The notes under the pieces were generated by a model, which searched no databases, was not told the DNA's origin, and was given only the letters and a program-made list of their open reading frames with translations. A DNA stretch of 64,000 nt from Defluviitaleaceae bacterium (GTDB lineage: Bacteria; Bacillota; Clostridia; Lachnospirales; WQUN01). The position numbers were made by a program, and so were the translations under genes. The stretch lies in the NCBI GenBank assembly GCA_009781765.1, contig WQVC01000002.1, positions 1 to 64,000 of the forward strand. Reading direction: 5' to 3'. Below are positions 2,679 to 9,502 of the stretch, one piece after another (the first letter of the stretch is position 1; each line of letters opens with the position of its first letter).

Positions 2679-4604
2679 TTAGCGGATTACACTCTCTCCT
2701 TCTGATTTAACAACTATATTGCCTTCTTTGTGCTTCCTGCTCATCAGATGGCGCGCTTTTCGATTTTCAACAGTGTCGAAAATGATTGAGAAATCGTAAT
2801 CATCGGGGTAAAGTTCGGCGGCCGCAATTTTCAGCTTTACGCGCTTGTGATTGACACGGTGCTTTTTGCCTTTTACCTGAACACCTATTTCGCCTTTGCT
2901 GTTGGCGCGCTCATACACGATGCCGATATCTTTTTGCGGGTACATAATTACGCTGTCGCCGATGTTAAAACGTTGGCTTCGGGGTATTGTTGCGATTTTT
3001 TCGGGTTCGCTTGAAATTTCCAAAGGCGTGACCGTAAGAATCGCGCTTTCGTTTTTCCCGGATTCAGCGACTTCATTGCGAGGAGCGGAGTATGTTATTT
3101 CTTTCGCGCGCTTTAAAAGATGCGCGGGCATACCGAGCCGTTCCGCTATATGCAACGCGCAGCTTTCTCCGGCTTCTCCGATTTCCAATTTGTACAGAGG
3201 CATAAGGCTTTCCCTGTCGAATGCCATGCGCGCATTTATTACTCCTTGCGTACGCGCGGCAAAATCTTTTATTTCAGGGTAGTGGGTTGTGACGGTGAAT
3301 AAGCAACCCTTTGCCAACAATTCTTCTAAAATTGCCGTGGCGATACCCATGCCTTCGGCAGGGTCTGTGCCGGAGCCGAGTTCGTCGAATAAAACCAGAG
3401 AATGTGCCGTGGTTTTTTCTAAAATATCTATGATGTTGGTCATGTGGGATGAAAACGTAGACAGGTTTTGAGAGATGCTTTGCCCGTCCCCGATATCGCA
3501 CCACACCGAATCAAAAATACATATGCTGCTGAGTTCATCCGCGGGAACGTGCAACCCGCTTTGAGCCATCAACGAAAGAAGCCCCGCCGTTTTTATTGCA
3601 ACGGTTTTTCCGCCTGTGTTCGGCCCGGTTACGATAATGCCTCTTATTCCGCCTCCCAGCGCGAAGTTCAACGGAACGGGTTCGCTGTTGTGCAAAAGCG
3701 GATGCCGCGCCGAAAGCAATCGTATTTCGCGGTCTTCGGTCAGACGGATTTGCGACGCTTTCATGGAGATGCTCAACTTTGCTTTGGCAAAAACAAAATC
3801 GAGAGTTTCCATTGCTTCCATGTTCATTTTGACGGACGTTAAATCATCGTGAATCAGAGCGGTAAGCGTATAGAGAATTGTGCGCACTTCGTTATCTTCC
3901 TCTGTTTTGAGCGCGGCAAGCTCGTCTTGCAGCTTGGATATTGCAGAGGGTTCGATGAAGCACGTTCCGCCCGTGTTAGACATTTCCACCAAAATGCCGG
4001 AAATTTTATTTTTGTGTTCCTTTTTTACGGGCATGGTGTATCTGCCGTTGCGAACAGCAACGAAACCGTCAACGCAATACGACCTGTTTTTTTGCAACAG
4101 AGATTCGATTTTGCTTTTAATTTGTTCACCTTTGCGCTCGATACTGCGACGCAAGTCGTGAAGCCTCGGGGTTGCCCTGTCGTCTATTTGCCCGTTGTTC
4201 AAACAACGACCGATTTCATCCGCCAAATCGGAAAGGTCAATCATGGAGTTTCCGTAAAATGCAATATCCGCTTCCGATGATTCCGCTTTTTTCAAATAAG
4301 ATTTCATTCGGGTGCATGACATAATGAATATTGCCACGTTGCTTATTTGCTCGGGGTTCAGCATTGCATCGGCGTTTATTAAGCCGATGATTTTTTCAAG
4401 CTCCGTCATAACCGCGACAGGCGGGTTTCCGACTTGCTCGATAATTTTTTTTGCTTCCGATGTTTGGTCGGCAAGCCGCTTTGCATCCGCAATATTTTTC
4501 GCCGGCACAACAGCTTTACAGCGTTCTTTTGCCGCCGATGAAACCGCGCAATCGGATAAGCGGTTAAGTATTTCGTCAAATTCCAAGGTTTTAAAATGAT
4601 TCAT
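2679..4604 (-). CDS. mutS2: MutS2-family ATPase lacking the Smr nuclease domain
   Basis: MutS-type ATPase, 641 residues. Family role in Bacillota: binding of branched DNA or, by recent work on MutS2, collided ribosomes. Seen: N-terminal helical core, coiled-coil region about 220-260, Walker A GPNTGGKT at 327-334, Walker B with DELGSGTD, and TTHYPEIK, then a KOW-like segment. MutS2 proteins usually reach ~780 residues with a C-terminal Smr endonuclease domain; here the chain stops after a tail containing YPDDYDF and NRKARH, so Smr is absent. That tail appears in a Smr-less clostridial subgroup, so this is likely a natural variant rather than a truncation. Start chosen at 4604 because GGAGG lies five bases upstream; an upstream in-frame Met at 4655 has no such site. 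Confidence 0.9.
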   Translation of the reverse strand: MNHFKTLEFDEILNRLSDCAVSSAAKERCKAVVPAKNIADAKRLADQTSEAKKIIEQVGNPPVAVMTELEKIIGLINADAMLNPEQISNVAIFIMSCTRMKSYLKKAESSEADIAFYGNSMIDLSDLADEIGRCLNNGQIDDRATPRLHDLRRSIERKGEQIKSKIESLLQKNRSYCVDGFVAVRNGRYTMPVKKEHKNKISGILVEMSNTGGTCFIEPSAISKLQDELAALKTEEDNEVRTILYTLTALIHDDLTSVKMNMEAMETLDFVFAKAKLSISMKASQIRLTEDREIRLLSARHPLLHNSEPVPLNFALGGGIRGIIVTGPNTGGKTVAIKTAGLLSLMAQSGLHVPADELSSICIFDSVWCDIGDGQSISQNLSTFSSHMTNIIDILEKTTAHSLVLFDELGSGTDPAEGMGIATAILEELLAKGCLFTVTTHYPEIKDFAARTQGVINARMAFDRESLMPLYKLEIGEAGESCALHIAERLGMPAHLLKRAKEITYSAPRNEVAESGKNESAILTVTPLEISSEPEKIATIPRSQRFNIGDSVIMYPQKDIGIVYERANSKGEIGVQVKGKKHRVNHKRVKLKIAAAELYPDDYDFSIIFDTVENRKARHLMSRKHKEGNIVVKSEGESVIR

Positions 4605-4621
4605 GTAATCCTCCTGTGTTA

Positions 4622-4650
4622 CAGCGAACGCACCGGATAAGCCCGTTCGC
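4622..4650. repeat. small AGCGAACG hairpin
   Basis: AGCGAACG ... CGTTCGCT with a short loop, in the mutS2 leader. Its TTACAGCGAACGC edge resembles the TACAGTGAACGC ends of family C, so it may be a minimal derivative. Confidence 0.45.
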
Positions 4651-4680
4651 TGCAATAATATAATTTTTATTTCGGACGCA

Positions 4681-4798
4681 AAAATGCCGCAGATAAGCAG
4701 CCTCGTAGAGTGTTGAAAAATGTCGCGAACGAACGTATGCGAACGGACAATTTTTCAACACTCTCCCTCAAGAAGAGCTGCTTCATCTGCGGCATTTT
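4681..4798. repeat. family B long hairpin B1 in the mutS2 leader
   Basis: Nested inverted repeat: AAAATGCCGCAGAT (4681-4694) with 4785-4798, AAGCAGC (4695-4701) with 4777-4783, and AGAGTGTTGAAAAAT (4707-4721) with its exact complement at 4750-4764. The loop holds CGTATGCGAAC. Related elements are at 14712-14792 and 22761-22876, each upstream of a minus-strand gene. Confidence 0.8.
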
Positions 4799-4820
4799 GT
4801 GTGATTGCGGATTATCGCAC

Positions 4821-4846
4821 AAAAAAAGATACGACCTTATCGTATC
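4821..4846 (-). terminator. intrinsic terminator of the ncRNA
   Basis: On the minus strand GATACGA-TAAGG-TCGTATC followed by seven T. Confidence 0.9.
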
Positions 4847-5021
4847 TCCCAACAGTGATGGCAGTATTCAAAAAAAGGTTGCTGATTTGACGGCACAGAA
4901 AAAAATACAGGCAAAACTGATGCCCCGTTTTTTAATTGCGCCTCGGTATGCGGTTTTAGGTTTGAATCACCGATACCACATCAGCACTCACAAAACACAC
5001 CTCTTTCTGAAATAAATATTC
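4821..5021 (-). ncRNA. ~200-nt structured RNA with own promoter and terminator; 6S RNA candidate
   Basis: A near-consensus promoter (5028-5056) starts a minus-strand transcript at about 5021 that ends at an intrinsic terminator (4821-4846); no credible ORF with a ribosome site lies inside. The 5' and 3' parts can pair: a ~14-bp closing helix from the region of 4998-5014 to about 4860-4875 (AGAAAGAGGT with ACCTTTTTTT, some G-U pairs), then TGCTGAT with ATCAGCA. The middle forms a GGTAT/ATACC hairpin and a long A/U-rich rod closed by GGCGCA with TGTGCC. Length, closed rod shape and a central open region fit bacterial 6S RNA, which binds housekeeping RNA polymerase. RNA gene likely; the 6S identity is inference. 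Confidence 0.6.
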
Positions 5022-5027
5022 ACTCCG

Positions 5028-5056
5028 AGTATATCCGTGAGCCGGGAAAATGTCAA
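5028..5056 (-). promoter_or_regulatory. strong sigma-A promoter of the ncRNA
   Basis: Minus strand TTGACA (5056-5051), 17-base spacer, TATACT (5033-5028). One of the closest matches to consensus in the window. Confidence 0.85.
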
Positions 5057-5094
5057 GGGTGAAAAATTTTCTTTCGCGATTTTCGGGAGGAATT

Positions 5095-5133
5095 AAAATC
5101 AATCGGTAACCGCTCAGCTACCAAATTGATTTT
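5095..5133. repeat. family A hairpin, copy 2 (reverse orientation)
   Basis: AAAATCAAT (5095-5103) pairs with ATTGATTTT (5125-5133); the loop is the reverse complement of the family loop, with GGTA/TACC closing it. It lies between the divergent ncRNA and rubrerythrin promoters, so it is not simply a gene-end terminator. Confidence 0.8.
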
Positions 5134-5241
5134 GACAACGCCGGTGCTTATAGTTAAACAAGGCAAAAGCGGCCTTGTTTAATCCCGCGCATACGCTCGT
5201 TCTCGAAAGCTCGCAGCATTTTTTAATGCTCTCCCCGGGTG

Positions 5242-5270
5242 TTGACAAACGCGGGGTTTTCGTTAAGAAT
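5242..5270 (+). promoter_or_regulatory. promoter of the rubredoxin-rubrerythrin gene
   Basis: TTGACA (5242-5247), 17 bases, AAGAAT (5265-5270), 49 bases before the ATG. The -35 sits in the loop of a CCCCG/CGGGG hairpin (5233-5256). Confidence 0.65.
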
Positions 5271-5318
5271 TCTGTAAAACGAGCTTGAAATACGAGAGTA
5301 CGAGAGGAGCGCGAAAAC

Positions 5319-6482
5319 ATGGACACTTCAACATTATTTAAATTAAGTTACGGGCTTTATCTGCTTACAACAGAATGCGACGGAAAAGATAACGGCTGCA
5401 TTATAAATACCGTTATGCAGGTTACAAGTTCCAATGTTTGCATGGTTTCCGTAAGCAAACAAAACCACACAAACGATATGATTATGAAATCTGAAAAGTT
5501 CAATGTTTCGGTGTTGACCAACAACACGCCGTTTGAAGTGATTGAGCATTTCGGTTTCAAGTCCGGAAAAAGCGAGGATAAATTTGCCGATTACAAGCAC
5601 GTCGAAAGAAGCGCAAACGGTATTCTTTATCTTGCGGAATGTGTTAATGCGTATCTGTCTTTTGAAGTGAAGGAATCGTTTGATTTTGGTTCGCACATGG
5701 TCTATAAATGTGAAATTGTCGGCGGCGAAACAATTTCGGACGCGCCGAGCCTTACGTACGACTATTATCACCGGTACATCAAACCCGCGCCGCAAGCCGC
5801 CGCGAAGGACGGGTATCGTTGCATTATTTGCGGATATGTATATGAGGGAGACGTTTTGCCCGATGATTATATCTGCCCGCTGTGCAAGCACGGAGCAAGC
5901 GATTTTGCGAAAATTAAAAAGGAGGAACGCATCATGTCCGCACCGAATCTGAAAGGAACAAAAACCGAAAAAAACTTGCAGGAAGCATTTGCCGGAGAAT
6001 CAATGGCGCGCAATAAATACACATATTTTGCGTCAAAGGCGAAAAACGAAGGGTATGAGCAGATTGCTGCACTTTTCGAAGAAACCGCGCTGAACGAACG
6101 GGAACACGCAAAAATATGGTTCAAGTTGCTTTGCGACGGCGACATCCCCGCAACCGCAGATAATCTTGCGGCGGCCGCCAAGGGCGAAAACGAGGAATGG
6201 ACTGATATGTACAAGCGCATGGCGTCTGAGGCAAAAGAAGAGGGCTTTGAACATATCGCGTTTTTATTCGAGCAGGTGGGCAATATCGAAAAAGACCACG
6301 AAGAACGTTATCTCAAACTGCTTGAAAATATGAAAAATTCGCAAATTTTTGCAAAAAACGAAAAATCCGTGTGGATTTGCCGAAATTGCGGGTATATCGC
6401 AGATGCGCAGGCAGCTCCCGGCGGTTGCCCCGTTTGCGTTCATCCGCAAGCGTATTTTGAATTGCGGTCTGTGAATTATTAA
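5319..6482 (+). CDS. flavin reductase-rubredoxin-rubrerythrin fusion protein
   Basis: Probable peroxide/oxygen-scavenging protein of an anaerobe. Domains in order over 387 residues: a flavin-reductase-like FMN domain (1-150), a rubredoxin (about 166-197, CxxC pairs CIIC and CPLC), a four-helix ferritin-like di-iron rubrerythrin domain (about 210-340, with the ExxH-type iron ligands), and a C-terminal rubredoxin with CRNC and CPVC. The first two domains match high-molecular-weight rubredoxin (Hrb), which passes NADH electrons to rubredoxin partners; here donor and acceptor are one chain. AAGGAGG with eight-base spacing precedes an internal ATG at 5934 (Met206), exactly where a free rubrerythrin would begin. 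Own promoter at 5242. Function by family is firm; use of the internal start is inference. Confidence 0.9.
   Translation: MDTSTLFKLSYGLYLLTTECDGKDNGCIINTVMQVTSSNVCMVSVSKQNHTNDMIMKSEKFNVSVLTNNTPFEVIEHFGFKSGKSEDKFADYKHVERSANGILYLAECVNAYLSFEVKESFDFGSHMVYKCEIVGGETISDAPSLTYDYYHRYIKPAPQAAAKDGYRCIICGYVYEGDVLPDDYICPLCKHGASDFAKIKKEERIMSAPNLKGTKTEKNLQEAFAGESMARNKYTYFASKAKNEGYEQIAALFEETALNEREHAKIWFKLLCDGDIPATADNLAAAAKGENEEWTDMYKRMASEAKEEGFEHIAFLFEQVGNIEKDHEERYLKLLENMKNSQIFAKNEKSVWICRNCGYIADAQAAPGGCPVCVHPQAYFELRSVNY
5919..5936 (+). promoter_or_regulatory. internal ribosome binding site and start for free rubrerythrin
   Basis: AAGGAGG at 5919-5925, eight bases, then ATG at 5934-5936, in frame at Met206 of the fusion. 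It could give a separate rubrerythrin from the same mRNA, or be left from a fusion of two genes. Confidence 0.55.
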
Positions 6483-6485
6483 ACA

Positions 6486-6515
6486 TTGACAAACGCCGTG
6501 TCTTTGGTGTAAAAG
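6486..6515 (+). promoter_or_regulatory. promoter of the Cys-rich gene
   Basis: TTGACA (6486-6491), 18 bases, TAAAAG (6510-6515), directly after the rubrerythrin stop codon. Confidence 0.55.
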
Positions 6516-6553
6516 TGAAACAGTACGAAATTACAGAGGGAGGGTGCGCGCAC

Positions 6554-6907
6554 ATGAAGAAGAAATTATTTATTCTTGCAATCGTGGTGTGTGTAGCCTC
6601 CCTTCTCTCTCCTTTTGCAGCCGTCTTCGGGACGGATTGCGATTGCGTCACCGAATGTTTGTGCGGCACGGACTGCAACTGCCCTCCCGATGCAGCTTGC
6701 GGTTGCGATGATACGTGTGCCTGCGAAGTTGTTTCTTGCTACGCCTGCGAACCTATGATTGTCAGATTTTCGGAGCAACAATTAAAAGCTGTTGCTTCGT
6801 TTTTTTATGCGGAATCCGGTTTGTCTTCGGCAAGCAACGGATACGAAAAAATTTTTATCGGCTGCACTTCAAATATTGTTGAAGCCCATGTGAAAATGAA
6901 TAATTAA
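6554..6907 (+). CDS. small secreted CxC-rich protein, metallothionein-like
   Basis: 117 residues, family not recognised. An N-terminal signal sequence (MKKKLFILAIVV... to about residue 25) without a lipobox is followed by a ~40-residue block holding 12 cysteines, several as CxC (CDC, CLC, CNC, CGC, CAC) among Asp/Glu, then a ~55-residue ordinary tail with one more Cys. Dense CxC is typical of metal-thiolate binding, so extracytoplasmic metal buffering is a reasonable inference; a disulfide-rich structural protein is the alternative. Start at 6554 follows GGGAGGG; the upstream Met at 6515 overlaps the -10. It lies between a rubrerythrin and an HMA-domain lipoprotein, which supports a metal or redox role. 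Confidence 0.7.
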   Translation: MKKKLFILAIVVCVASLLSPFAAVFGTDCDCVTECLCGTDCNCPPDAACGCDDTCACEVVSCYACEPMIVRFSEQQLKAVASFFYAESGLSSASNGYEKIFIGCTSNIVEAHVKMNN

Positions 6908-6911
6908 GAGC

Positions 6912-7029
6912 TACATACGGCGAACACCATCGTTCGCGACCGCGCAAGGAATTATCGTGCCGATTTCGGCATAATTTTGCCTTGCTTTTTTGCACTTACG
7001 CCCCTTGTTCGCTTGGTGCGTTTGCTGTA
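6912..7029. repeat. family C-related element C4
   Basis: Starts TACATACGGCGAACA and ends with the complement of TACAGCAAACGCACC; the right arm, read on the minus strand, matches the left arm of C3 (AAGCGAACAAGGGG then CGTAAG). The centre is replaced by a terminator hairpin. Confidence 0.6.
6944..6991 (+). terminator. terminator after the Cys-rich gene
   Basis: GCAAGG/CCTTGC outer and TGCCGA/TCGGCA inner stems joined by AATTAT/AT-rich pairs, then six T. Confidence 0.8.
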
Positions 7030-7058
7030 CCGAAAATTAAATTCAAGGAGAATGTGAA

Positions 7059-7352
7059 ATGAAAAAAATAGTTTTCGTTTTATTTGCTGTTTTAATTTTT
7101 CTTGCCGCTTGCGGCGAAAATAATGCGGTAACATCGCAGACGGAAGGCGCGACAACAACCGAACTTACCGTATGGGGAATGGTGTGCCAAAGTTGCATAA
7201 CGACGGTGGAACGCGCTGTATCCGACGTTGACGGCGTGATTAGCGTTTCGGCAAACTTTAGGGCAAACACTGTAACAATTATTCACGACGACACCGTTGA
7301 CATCAACGAAATCGAAAAAATCATAGAGCAGGAGGGCTTTAACCTGCCATGA
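7059..7352 (+). CDS. lipoprotein with a heavy-metal-associated (HMA) domain
   Basis: 97 residues. The first ~19 are a lipoprotein signal with lipobox LAAC, then a short Thr-rich spacer and a complete HMA fold from about residue 33 with the metal motif GMVCQSC (GMxCxxC). HMA domains bind Cu(I), Zn or similar ions and are normally cytoplasmic chaperones or parts of P-type ATPases and MerP; a membrane-anchored outside-facing form is uncommon. Its stop overlaps the start of the next gene (ATGA, 7349-7352), so it is translated together with the ABC permease. Inference: it delivers or senses metal at the outer face for the ABC system. GGAG ribosome site seven bases upstream. Confidence 0.85.
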   Translation: MKKIVFVLFAVLIFLAACGENNAVTSQTEGATTTELTVWGMVCQSCITTVERAVSDVDGVISVSANFRANTVTIIHDDTVDINEIEKIIEQEGFNLP

Positions 7353-8512
7353 ATACATTTAAGTTAATCACGCGGAATCTTTTTCGCAAAAAATTCAGAT
7401 TTCTGTTTACGTTGCTTGGAATTACAATCGGAATGGCGTCGTTTGTCGCGCTGTTTTCGTTGAGCGGAAGTATGCGCGCCGAAGTCACGCGGCAATCCCA
7501 CGCGATGGGCGCGAATTTAATGGTAATGCCCGACGGAATCTGCGTTTTTAACCAAATCGCTCTGCTTACCGGCGAACGTGTTTCCGAAACAATTCAAATC
7601 GAGGATTTTTACGCAATTCGTGCGCTGGAGGGGTTGAGCGTTATTCCGCACCTCACGCAAACAGCCGCGGTTCGCGACCGCGAAACCGTAATTAACGGCA
7701 TTCTTCCGCAGGAAACGTGGGATTTTCGTAACTGGCGGATGCTCGCCGGCGAATATTTTTCCGCCCGAGACGAACACGCCGTAATTATCGGCTCGAATTT
7801 CGCGCAAATGCGTGATTTGGGCGTCGGCGACGAAGTTACGATTCGCGGCTCGGAGTTCACGATTATCGGAATTTTAGCCGTAACGCACAGCAACGACGAT
7901 TCTGCAATGTTCATGCCGTTATCGACAGCGCAAACGATTTTCGGGCGCGAAGGGCTGATTTCATATATGTCGGTGGTTGTTGACGATTTGTCACGAATGG
8001 ATGAACACATTGCCGCAATTATCGAAGCGGGCACGGTTCAAACATCAACCGACGAACAGCTTTTAAGCTCGGTTCTTGCGATTATCGGCTCGGTGAATAT
8101 CACGTTACAAGTTGTTGCGGCGGTCGCACTTGTTGCGGCGGCGTTCGGAACGATTAACACGATGATGACGGCCGTGTACGAACGGCGGCGCGAAATCGGA
8201 ATTTTGCGGGCAATCGGTTGCAAACGCCGAACAATTTTTAAAAATTTCCTTCTCGAATCCGGACTGTACGGATTGTTCGGAGGGGTTTTGGGGATAATTG
8301 TCGGGCTTGCGGCGGCGTTTTTCGCAGGGGATTTTATTTCGCGAATCGGCGCGAACGAGCTGATGAAGGGCGTCACAACCGAGGCAACTTTAGACATTAA
8401 CCTTGTGCTTGCAACCATCGGCGTATCGCTTGTTTTGTCGATGTTTTCGGGATTTATTCCGGCGTTTAAGGCGTCAAAATTAACACCGACGGAGGCGATG
8501 GGTTATGAATAA
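7349..8512 (+). CDS. ABC transporter permease, FtsX/MacB family
   Basis: 387 residues: one N-terminal membrane segment (about 18-40), a large extracytoplasmic MacB-type periplasmic-core-like domain (about 45-240), then three C-terminal segments of the FtsX domain (about 250-380). This is the LolCDE/MacB-type mechanotransmission architecture, in which ATP hydrolysis moves extracytoplasmic domains and need not carry substrate across the membrane. Both neighbours overlap it: HMA lipoprotein upstream by 4 bases, ATPase downstream by 8 bases, so the three are one translational unit. Substrate unknown; the HMA partner suggests a metal, metal-peptide or lipoprotein-linked substrate. Confidence 0.9.
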   Translation: MNTFKLITRNLFRKKFRFLFTLLGITIGMASFVALFSLSGSMRAEVTRQSHAMGANLMVMPDGICVFNQIALLTGERVSETIQIEDFYAIRALEGLSVIPHLTQTAAVRDRETVINGILPQETWDFRNWRMLAGEYFSARDEHAVIIGSNFAQMRDLGVGDEVTIRGSEFTIIGILAVTHSNDDSAMFMPLSTAQTIFGREGLISYMSVVVDDLSRMDEHIAAIIEAGTVQTSTDEQLLSSVLAIIGSVNITLQVVAAVALVAAAFGTINTMMTAVYERRREIGILRAIGCKRRTIFKNFLLESGLYGLFGGVLGIIVGLAAAFFAGDFISRIGANELMKGVTTEATLDINLVLATIGVSLVLSMFSGFIPAFKASKLTPTEAMGYE

Positions 8513-9182
8513 TTCAATCATTCGCACCGAAAATCTCGAAAAAATTTATGGGAATTCGTCCGTCAAAACACATGCGCTTAAAGGCATAAATTTGGAAATT
8601 CCGCGCGGTTCGTTTTCGTGCATTATCGGAAAATCCGGGCACGGAAAAAGTACGTTGATGCACTTAATCGGCGGCCTCGACAAACCGTCCGGCGGAAGTG
8701 TTTTCATCGACGGAATAAATCTTTCCGCGCTGAACGACAACAAATTGTCGGAAATTCGTGCCGAAAAAATCGGATTTGTTTTTCAATTTTTCAATTTGCT
8801 GAAAAATCTCACTGCTGCGGAAAATATTCAAACCGCCATGATGTTCGGAAAAATTCCGACGAAAGAACATGCAAAAAAAACAGATGAGTTGCTGCAATTA
8901 GTCGGGCTTTCTGACAAGGCGAACGCAAAACCCGGCGAAATGTCGGGCGGGCAACAACAACGTGTTTCAATTGCTCGCGCGCTTGCAAATAACCCCGACA
9001 TTCTTTTGATGGACGAACCGACCGGAAATCTTGATTCGGAATCGGAAGAAGAAGTGTTGGAGCAAATTTTAAAAATTCACAAAACGGGCAAAACCGTCGT
9101 AATTGTTACCCATAACAAGGAATTAGCGCAAAAAGCCGAAATAATTTTTGAGGTCAAAGACGGAAAATTATTTTCAATTTGA
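8505..9182 (+). CDS. ABC transporter ATP-binding protein, LolD/MacB type
   Basis: 225-residue nucleotide-binding subunit for the permease at 7349. Seen: Walker A GKSGHGKST near residue 40, Q-loop FQFFNLL, signature MSGGQQQRVSIARAL near 145, Walker B ILLMDEPTGNLD, and the H-loop VTHN. The GNLDSE stretch after Walker B is typical of the LolD/FtsE/MacB subfamily. Walker A has His in place of the more common Ser/Cys inside the loop. Starts inside the permease gene (8-base overlap). Gene end is followed directly by a family C element. Confidence 0.95.
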   Translation: MNNSIIRTENLEKIYGNSSVKTHALKGINLEIPRGSFSCIIGKSGHGKSTLMHLIGGLDKPSGGSVFIDGINLSALNDNKLSEIRAEKIGFVFQFFNLLKNLTAAENIQTAMMFGKIPTKEHAKKTDELLQLVGLSDKANAKPGEMSGGQQQRVSIARALANNPDILLMDEPTGNLDSESEEEVLEQILKIHKTGKTVVIVTHNKELAQKAEIIFEVKDGKLFSI

Positions 9183-9460: not shown

Positions 9461-9502
9461 AAAAAACCTATCGGTAGCTGAGCGGTTACCGATAGGTTTT
9501 TT
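9461..9502. terminator. family A hairpin, copy 3; bidirectional terminator
   Basis: AAAAAACCTATCGGTA (9461-9476) pairs perfectly over 16 bp with 9487-9502; loop GCTGAGCGGT. T-rich on both strands. Ends the HMA/ABC operon. Confidence 0.85.

Follow-up and report, generated by a model that had tools for sequence, protein, structure and literature searches.

What can an ABC system of the MacB/Lol type do with a metal-binding domain that is tethered outside the membrane? A short gene cluster in a gut bacterium raises this question. It lies in a 64,000-nucleotide stretch of DNA (the window) that covers positions 1 to 64,000, forward strand, of Defluviitaleaceae contig WQVC01000002.1 (assembly GCA_009781765.1). 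A first-pass annotation, made from the letters of the window, had read the cluster as metal capture or redox protection at the cell surface, driven by a mechanotransmission ABC protein. The answer that we favor, with a probability of roughly 0.5, is that a thiophilic metal is handled at the membrane surface, between a tethered carrier and the permease, with ATP as the energy source.

The triad and its upstream genes

We found that the lipoprotein, permease and ATPase genes (the triad, Table 1) bear out the proposed coupling of a lipid-anchored HMA domain to a MacB/Lol-type ABC system. The lipoprotein has a lipobox, retains the CxxC pair and belongs to the HMA family (51.9 bits versus a PF00403 gathering cut-off of 24.8), its stop codon overlaps the permease start codon as ATGA, and the permease and ATPase genes overlap by 8 bases. 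The overlapping start and stop codons indicate that all three genes are probably translationally coupled. The ATPase has intact Walker A, signature, Walker B and H-loop motifs, and the permease, probably a homodimer, is predicted to fold like MacB, LolE and HrtB, with HrtBA among its fold matches. By family and predicted fold, a mechanotransmission-type ABC protein was therefore the right class to name. The window's genome encodes only distant paralogues of the permease. Sugar-ABC genes adjoin the triad past position 9182, and an Rfam comparison of the window matched no riboswitch or other known RNA in the leader.

Table 1. Features of the triad and of the region upstream, in window coordinates
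Feature	Position	Strand	Description
Flavin-reductase/rubredoxin-like/rubrerythrin three-domain fusion	5319-6482		Gene before the Cys-rich gene
Secreted Cys-rich protein, 117 aa	6554..6907	+	Signal-peptide-like N-terminus; 14 Cys in total, 12 within residues 29-65 (37 residues)
36-base element	6872..6907	+	33/36 identical to G007:C6:56369-56398, same site upstream of the HMA gene
Hairpin with T-run, probable intrinsic terminator	about 6944-6990	+	Fold -22.8 kcal/mol, z -2.33; between the Cys-rich and HMA genes
HMA lipoprotein	7059..7352	+	Single HMA domain, GMVCQSC; lipobox LAAC; PF00403 E 1e-13; putative tethered metal carrier
MacB/FtsX-type ABC permease, single subunit	7349..8512	+	PF12704 MacB_PCD 1e-26; PF02687 FtsX 2e-23
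LolD/MacB-type ATPase	8505..9182	+	PF00005; best NCBIfam match LolD TIGR02211 7.7e-71, under cut-off

Two upstream genes had been drawn into the same function, and their descriptions were accurate: the 12 cysteines counted in about 40 residues of a secreted protein fall within 37, and the gene before it encodes a rubrerythrin fusion. The fusion, probably a peroxide or oxygen detoxification enzyme of an anaerobe, did not recur in any neighborhood that we inspected. We therefore rejected it as a component of the system; the redox protection proposed through it rests on one genome, and the fusion is probably a bystander.

The Cys-rich protein is a possible extracellular metal sink. It matched no Pfam or NCBIfam family and has no convincing homologue among 40 related genomes. 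Because a terminator-like hairpin separates its gene from the HMA gene, it is probably transcribed separately from the triad. Such a protein is a recurring part of the architecture, with a small secreted Cys-rich protein found upstream of 15 of 51 family loci and of 0 of 16 controls (a sixteenth match, L081, was omitted as it resembles a ferredoxin-type membrane protein). We also considered, and rejected, homology between the window's protein and those upstream of the OB-type loci described below (2.8 bits, from composition only); they share a position upstream without a sequence relationship.

The last 36 bases of the Cys-rich reading frame form an element that recurs upstream of the HMA gene in a second genome of the genus, where no open reading frame starts at the copy. 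It is present once in each of 2 of the 10 genomes of the genus and missing from the other eight, with no copy expected by chance, and it is possibly a cis element, an operator or a leader. Separately, a near-palindromic 19-mer, CGGTAACCGCTCAGCTACC, has four copies in the window (2482, 5104, 9473 and 40630) on both strands, where none are expected. We rejected the idea that the 39-nt inverted repeat at 5095 and 9462 marks the ends of a mobile unit: its core motif recurs at 2482 and 40630, and the copy at 9462 by itself makes a hairpin with a T-run, so that a repeated terminator-like element is more likely.

Distribution of the family and exchange of the partner domain

A scan of contigs with one protein as the query gave nothing. 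When an alignment was used as the query against the contigs of named genomes, about 60 permease relatives were recovered (38-64% identity). A neighborhood search for the triad, as the first-pass annotation had suggested, showed the order of HMA, permease and ATPase genes to be kept in at least 10 further loci, mostly from termite-gut Firmicutes (the termite source is our reading of the isolate names). The triad is therefore not a chance arrangement, and the lack of conservation that the first-pass annotation had named as refuting its proposal does not apply. An ATPase gene lies 3′ of the permease gene at every relative locus where the contig reaches that far. The hosts are termite-gut Firmicutes and Coriobacteriia, Geobacteraceae, Nitrospirae, other Deltaproteobacteria, a Gammaproteobacterium and Sinanaerobacter, and the wider family spans Nitrospirae, Geobacteraceae, Actinomycetota, Gammaproteobacteria and a Vibrio plasmid. 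Close permease relatives occur in 7 of 60 related genomes; they are rare in wider samples (11 of 392 genomes of the order, 1 of 398 of the phylum and 1 of 291 of the class), in which few candidates were scored per genome and the phylum and class matches are the window's own genome.

The gene directly upstream of the permease encodes an HMA protein in 10 loci besides the window and another small tethered protein in 45. Scanned representatives of the latter matched nothing in Pfam or NCBIfam, and an AlphaFold model of one has an OB fold (pLDDT 90-98 over the core) whose structure matches are general for OB folds, with Cu(I)-CusF among them. Cysteines are present in both kinds of partner: GMxCxxC is invariant in all 11 HMA partners, and at least two cysteines lie within the last 105 residues of all 45 OB partners. 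The lipobox cysteine is found in 10 of 11 HMA partners. Since the tether is a lipid in some partners and apparently an uncleaved helix in others, the shared feature is tethering rather than lipidation.

In a maximum-likelihood permease tree, the HMA-type permeases fall into one clade (support 100/99) nested in OB-type branches; its 13 rows also take in one OB-type row and one row from a contig that ends before the upstream gene. Consequently, an HMA domain seems to have taken over the position of an OB-fold partner, and the simplest reading of the tree would be one replacement followed by one later reversal. The window's permease ends a long branch in this tree (0.55; most of its nearest relatives have 0.11-0.24), which suggests that it evolved faster in the window's genome.

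Four permease residues, C65, W129, D183 and D184, are invariant in 56 of 56 family members, the window's included. All four lie in the extracytoplasmic domain, with C65 just past its first strand. The segment that carries C65 is gapped in 36 of 44 comparison permeases, and the lone comparison row with a cysteine at this site (L103) is really a family member.

Metal genes, thioredoxins and competing readings

We found ArsR and MerR regulators, heavy-metal CPx/P1B P-type ATPases, CusABC and TlpA near the OB-type loci. By phmmer counts, ArsR, MerR, P1B or Cus genes are near 15 of 60 family loci and 1 of 20 control MacB-type loci (P = 0.045), where the rows are phylogenetically non-independent and the control L103 is an actual family member. 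On a Vibrio campbellii plasmid, the genes run ArsR, OB protein, permease, ATPase, TlpA, two SMR proteins, a hypothetical protein, a P1B ATPase and a thioredoxin, and the locus adjoins Tn3-family transposase and recombinase genes. On the Pelobacter plasmid pPRO1, genes for a secreted HMA protein and a DUF2318 protein precede a distantly related FtsX/LolD pair (27% identity). This pair is flanked by P1B ATPase genes and a TolC/RND set and has a metal regulator next to it. This distant pair behind an HMA protein suggests that the pairing of HMA domains with FtsX-type ABC systems arose more than once.

The context of the HMA-type loci is thinner than that of the OB-type loci. An ArsR with a Cys-rich tail lies directly upstream of the HMA gene in L046, the sole HMA-type locus with a metal-type regulator. 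L045 has TlpA and CcdA genes. In L047, two extra HMA-like secreted proteins, one with a degenerate second domain, are encoded 5′ of the HMA lipoprotein (about 3868-6001).

The first-pass annotation had held that linkage of the HMA gene to ordinary P-type ATPases in relatives would speak against its proposal. Such linkage exists on the OB side of the family, in L067, L088, L097 and L138, and no CPx ATPase with a DKTGT motif was found in the examined flanks of HMA-type loci. In three unrelated hosts, the heavy-metal P-type ATPases carry CSC in place of CPC (L097, 8411-10942; L138, 8642-10747; L067, 3005-5101). An MtrA (tetrahydromethanopterin S-methyltransferase subunit A)-like corrinoid-type protein with a DUF4346 domain adjoins the OB-type system in L070, L084, L089 and L097, which may point to methylated metal(loid) chemistry.

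From gene order, gene overlap, cysteine sites, the replacement of the domain and the metal context of the OB-type loci, we infer metal binding, contact between the partners, direction and purpose. In the proposed mechanism, the CxxC pair of the lipid-anchored HMA domain would bind a thiophilic metal (for example Cu(I) or Zn/Cd) on the outer side of the membrane, where the domain would be positioned next to the extracytoplasmic part of a homodimeric MacB-type permease. As the LolD-like ATPase binds and hydrolyzes ATP, this part of the permease would be driven to change its conformation (mechanotransmission), the metal would pass from the carrier's CxxC to or past Cys65 of the permease, and the carrier would be emptied as the metal is cleared or passed on. 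An OB-fold Cys-pair protein would take the carrier's place in most of the wider family, and the HMA domain in the window's clade. One point against this mechanism is that a monoderm cell lacks a periplasm that could hold the metal, so clearance would have to consist of release into the medium.

The purpose is most likely detoxification or resistance, rather than delivery. Because the unit's relatives lie beside metal-resistance genes, it probably provides an undescribed route to clear or move toxic metals at the cell surface. The metal role first proposed for the cluster thus stands insofar as OB-type homologues adjoin metal-response genes; its appeal to the window's Cys-rich protein, which has neither a convincing homologue nor a probable shared transcript, does not. 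Against the metal reading, three quarters of the loci have no adjacent metal genes, the window's own neighbors past 9182 are sugar-ABC genes, HMA domains also have non-resistance roles, and C65 could instead be a redox or structural residue.

The same parts could serve metal delivery, with a tethered chaperone and the ABC proteins loading a surface metalloenzyme. NosL-NosDFY offers the parallel, as a lipid-anchored copper chaperone and metal carrier stands there beside a non-transporting ABC system thought to act by mechanical motion; its carrier and permease folds are presumably different, and the triad apparently comes without NosD and without a nearby NosZ gene. Across the inspected loci, no metalloenzyme gene recurs next to the operon, the Vibrio and Pelobacter plasmids provide a resistance-type context, and fermentative anaerobes have few cuproenzymes. 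We consider delivery decidedly improbable.

The main rival to metal handling is a thiol-redox support machine, in which the ABC proteins and the tethered Cys protein would move reducing or oxidizing equivalents over or along the membrane and any metal would be secondary. It resembles a proposal for the Fet system, whose FetBCD is proposed to supply reducing power together with thioredoxins and a CxxC protein (PMC10783030). A TlpA-like thioredoxin is encoded 3′ of the ATPase in L078, L088 and L138 and near it in L100, TlpA and CcdA genes precede the HMA gene in L045, and disulfides are possible for the partners' Cys pairs and for C65. However, TlpA appears in only 5 of 60 loci, the HMA domain is a metal-transfer fold and no known disulfide carrier, and the ArsR, MerR and P1B neighbors favor metal. 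We therefore regard this rival as rather unlikely.

A signaling or cell-wall control machine like BceAB or FtsEX, triggered by metal through the tethered domain, would account for a two-component pair just 5′ of the OB gene in L083, for BlaI/BlaR1-like genes in L077, L085 and L090, and for an M23 peptidase gene 3′ of the Pelobacter pair. Such neighbors are found in a minority of loci, differ in kind and were not seen near the HMA-type loci, which leaves this reading very improbable. In L085, the BlaR1-like M56 peptidase (4204-5385) has a Cys-rich C-terminal tail and is encoded beside the BlaI-like regulator, 5′ of the OB-type system.

Known systems and P1B ATPases

The triad shares its permease and ATPase superfamily and fold with MacB, LolCDE and HrtBA; it differs from them in having an unfused ATPase, one permease gene, no membrane-fusion protein, the extra Cys65 segment and a Cys-pair partner. 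Scores against LolCDE fell below the cut-offs (94.7 versus 362 for lolCE and 238.1 versus 307.8 for LolD), and MacAB-TolC is excluded by separate genes, by the lack of a membrane-fusion protein in the locus and by a score of 72.3 bits versus 966. The known roles of MacB-type ABC machines concern drugs, peptides, heme, lipoproteins and wall control. An ordinary exporter of a small molecule, peptide, heme or lipoprotein, with the HMA lipoprotein as an accessory or sensor that transfers no metal, would fit the resemblance to MacB, LolCE and LolD and the fold match to HrtBA, a two-gene MacB-type heme exporter. The missing membrane-fusion gene, the near-constant presence of a Cys-pair protein in the partner slot and the location of C65 in a family-specific segment argue against it, and we judge it improbable. 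Lol-type lipoprotein extraction by the family is likewise unlikely, as some partners are anchored through a transmembrane helix instead of a lipid.

FetMP-FetABCDEF, the Campylobacter P19 cluster, resembles the triad in its MacB/FtsX-type permeases and ATPase, its CxxC membrane protein and thioredoxins, and its link to metal (PMC10783030). Compared by gene content, Fet differs in its second permease, its DUF2318/YHS membrane protein, its FTR1-type iron permease and P19, whereas the triad combines a single permease with an HMA or OB partner and lacks an iron permease; positions 5319-9182 contain a single permease gene and no DUF2318, FTR1 or P19 gene.

The carrier itself resembles CopZ and MerP in its HMA fold with GMxCxxC and differs in its lipid anchor, its location outside the cell and its coupling to an ABC permease; its scores are below the NCBIfam cut-offs (51.7 versus 91 for CopZ and 33.2 versus 92.6 for MerP). 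Staphylococcus aureus CopL is reportedly a copper-binding surface lipoprotein that keeps metal sequestered on the outside of the monoderm cell. CopL works with P1B copper ATPases and is not known to contain an HMA domain or to be paired with an ABC system.

The triad is not categorically new, because its ABC core belongs to the known MacB/Lol-type superfamily. At the same time, no curated family covers an OB- or HMA-partnered permease system, and our literature search, by title and abstract, found no paper describing an HMA-lipoprotein/FtsX/ATPase gene set. The earlier statement that no named system has this composition agrees with these results, as no curated family scored above its cut-off. 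It is possible, as a tentative extension, that the family forms an unreported class of metal-handling ABC systems, in which membrane-tethered OB or HMA thiol domains, interchangeable in evolution, pass metal to a MacB-type permease through a dedicated cysteine and which replaces P1B ATPases in the window's genus. If true, extramembrane metal handling would gain a further mode, a metal-dedicated MacB-type ABC system whose carrier changed its fold but retained its Cys pair. C65 and the CxxC pair offer a direct test site, and some hosts are named or isolated (Sinanaerobacter, Geotalea and the Vibrio plasmid), so that genetics may be feasible there.

The proposed replacement can be compared with whole genomes. 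Apart from the HMA lipoprotein, no HMA match was found in the window's genome, and the same holds for three others of the genus (G002, G007 and G009). The P-type ATPases of these four genomes all carry PEG/PET-type motifs rather than CPx, and a P1B query matched nothing in them; as the assemblies are 71-94% complete, the absences are provisional. We rejected the replacement of P1B ATPases as a general rule, since several HMA-type genomes outside the genus carry them. Within the genus, the HMA system occurs without P1B ATPases in these four genomes (P = 0.07).
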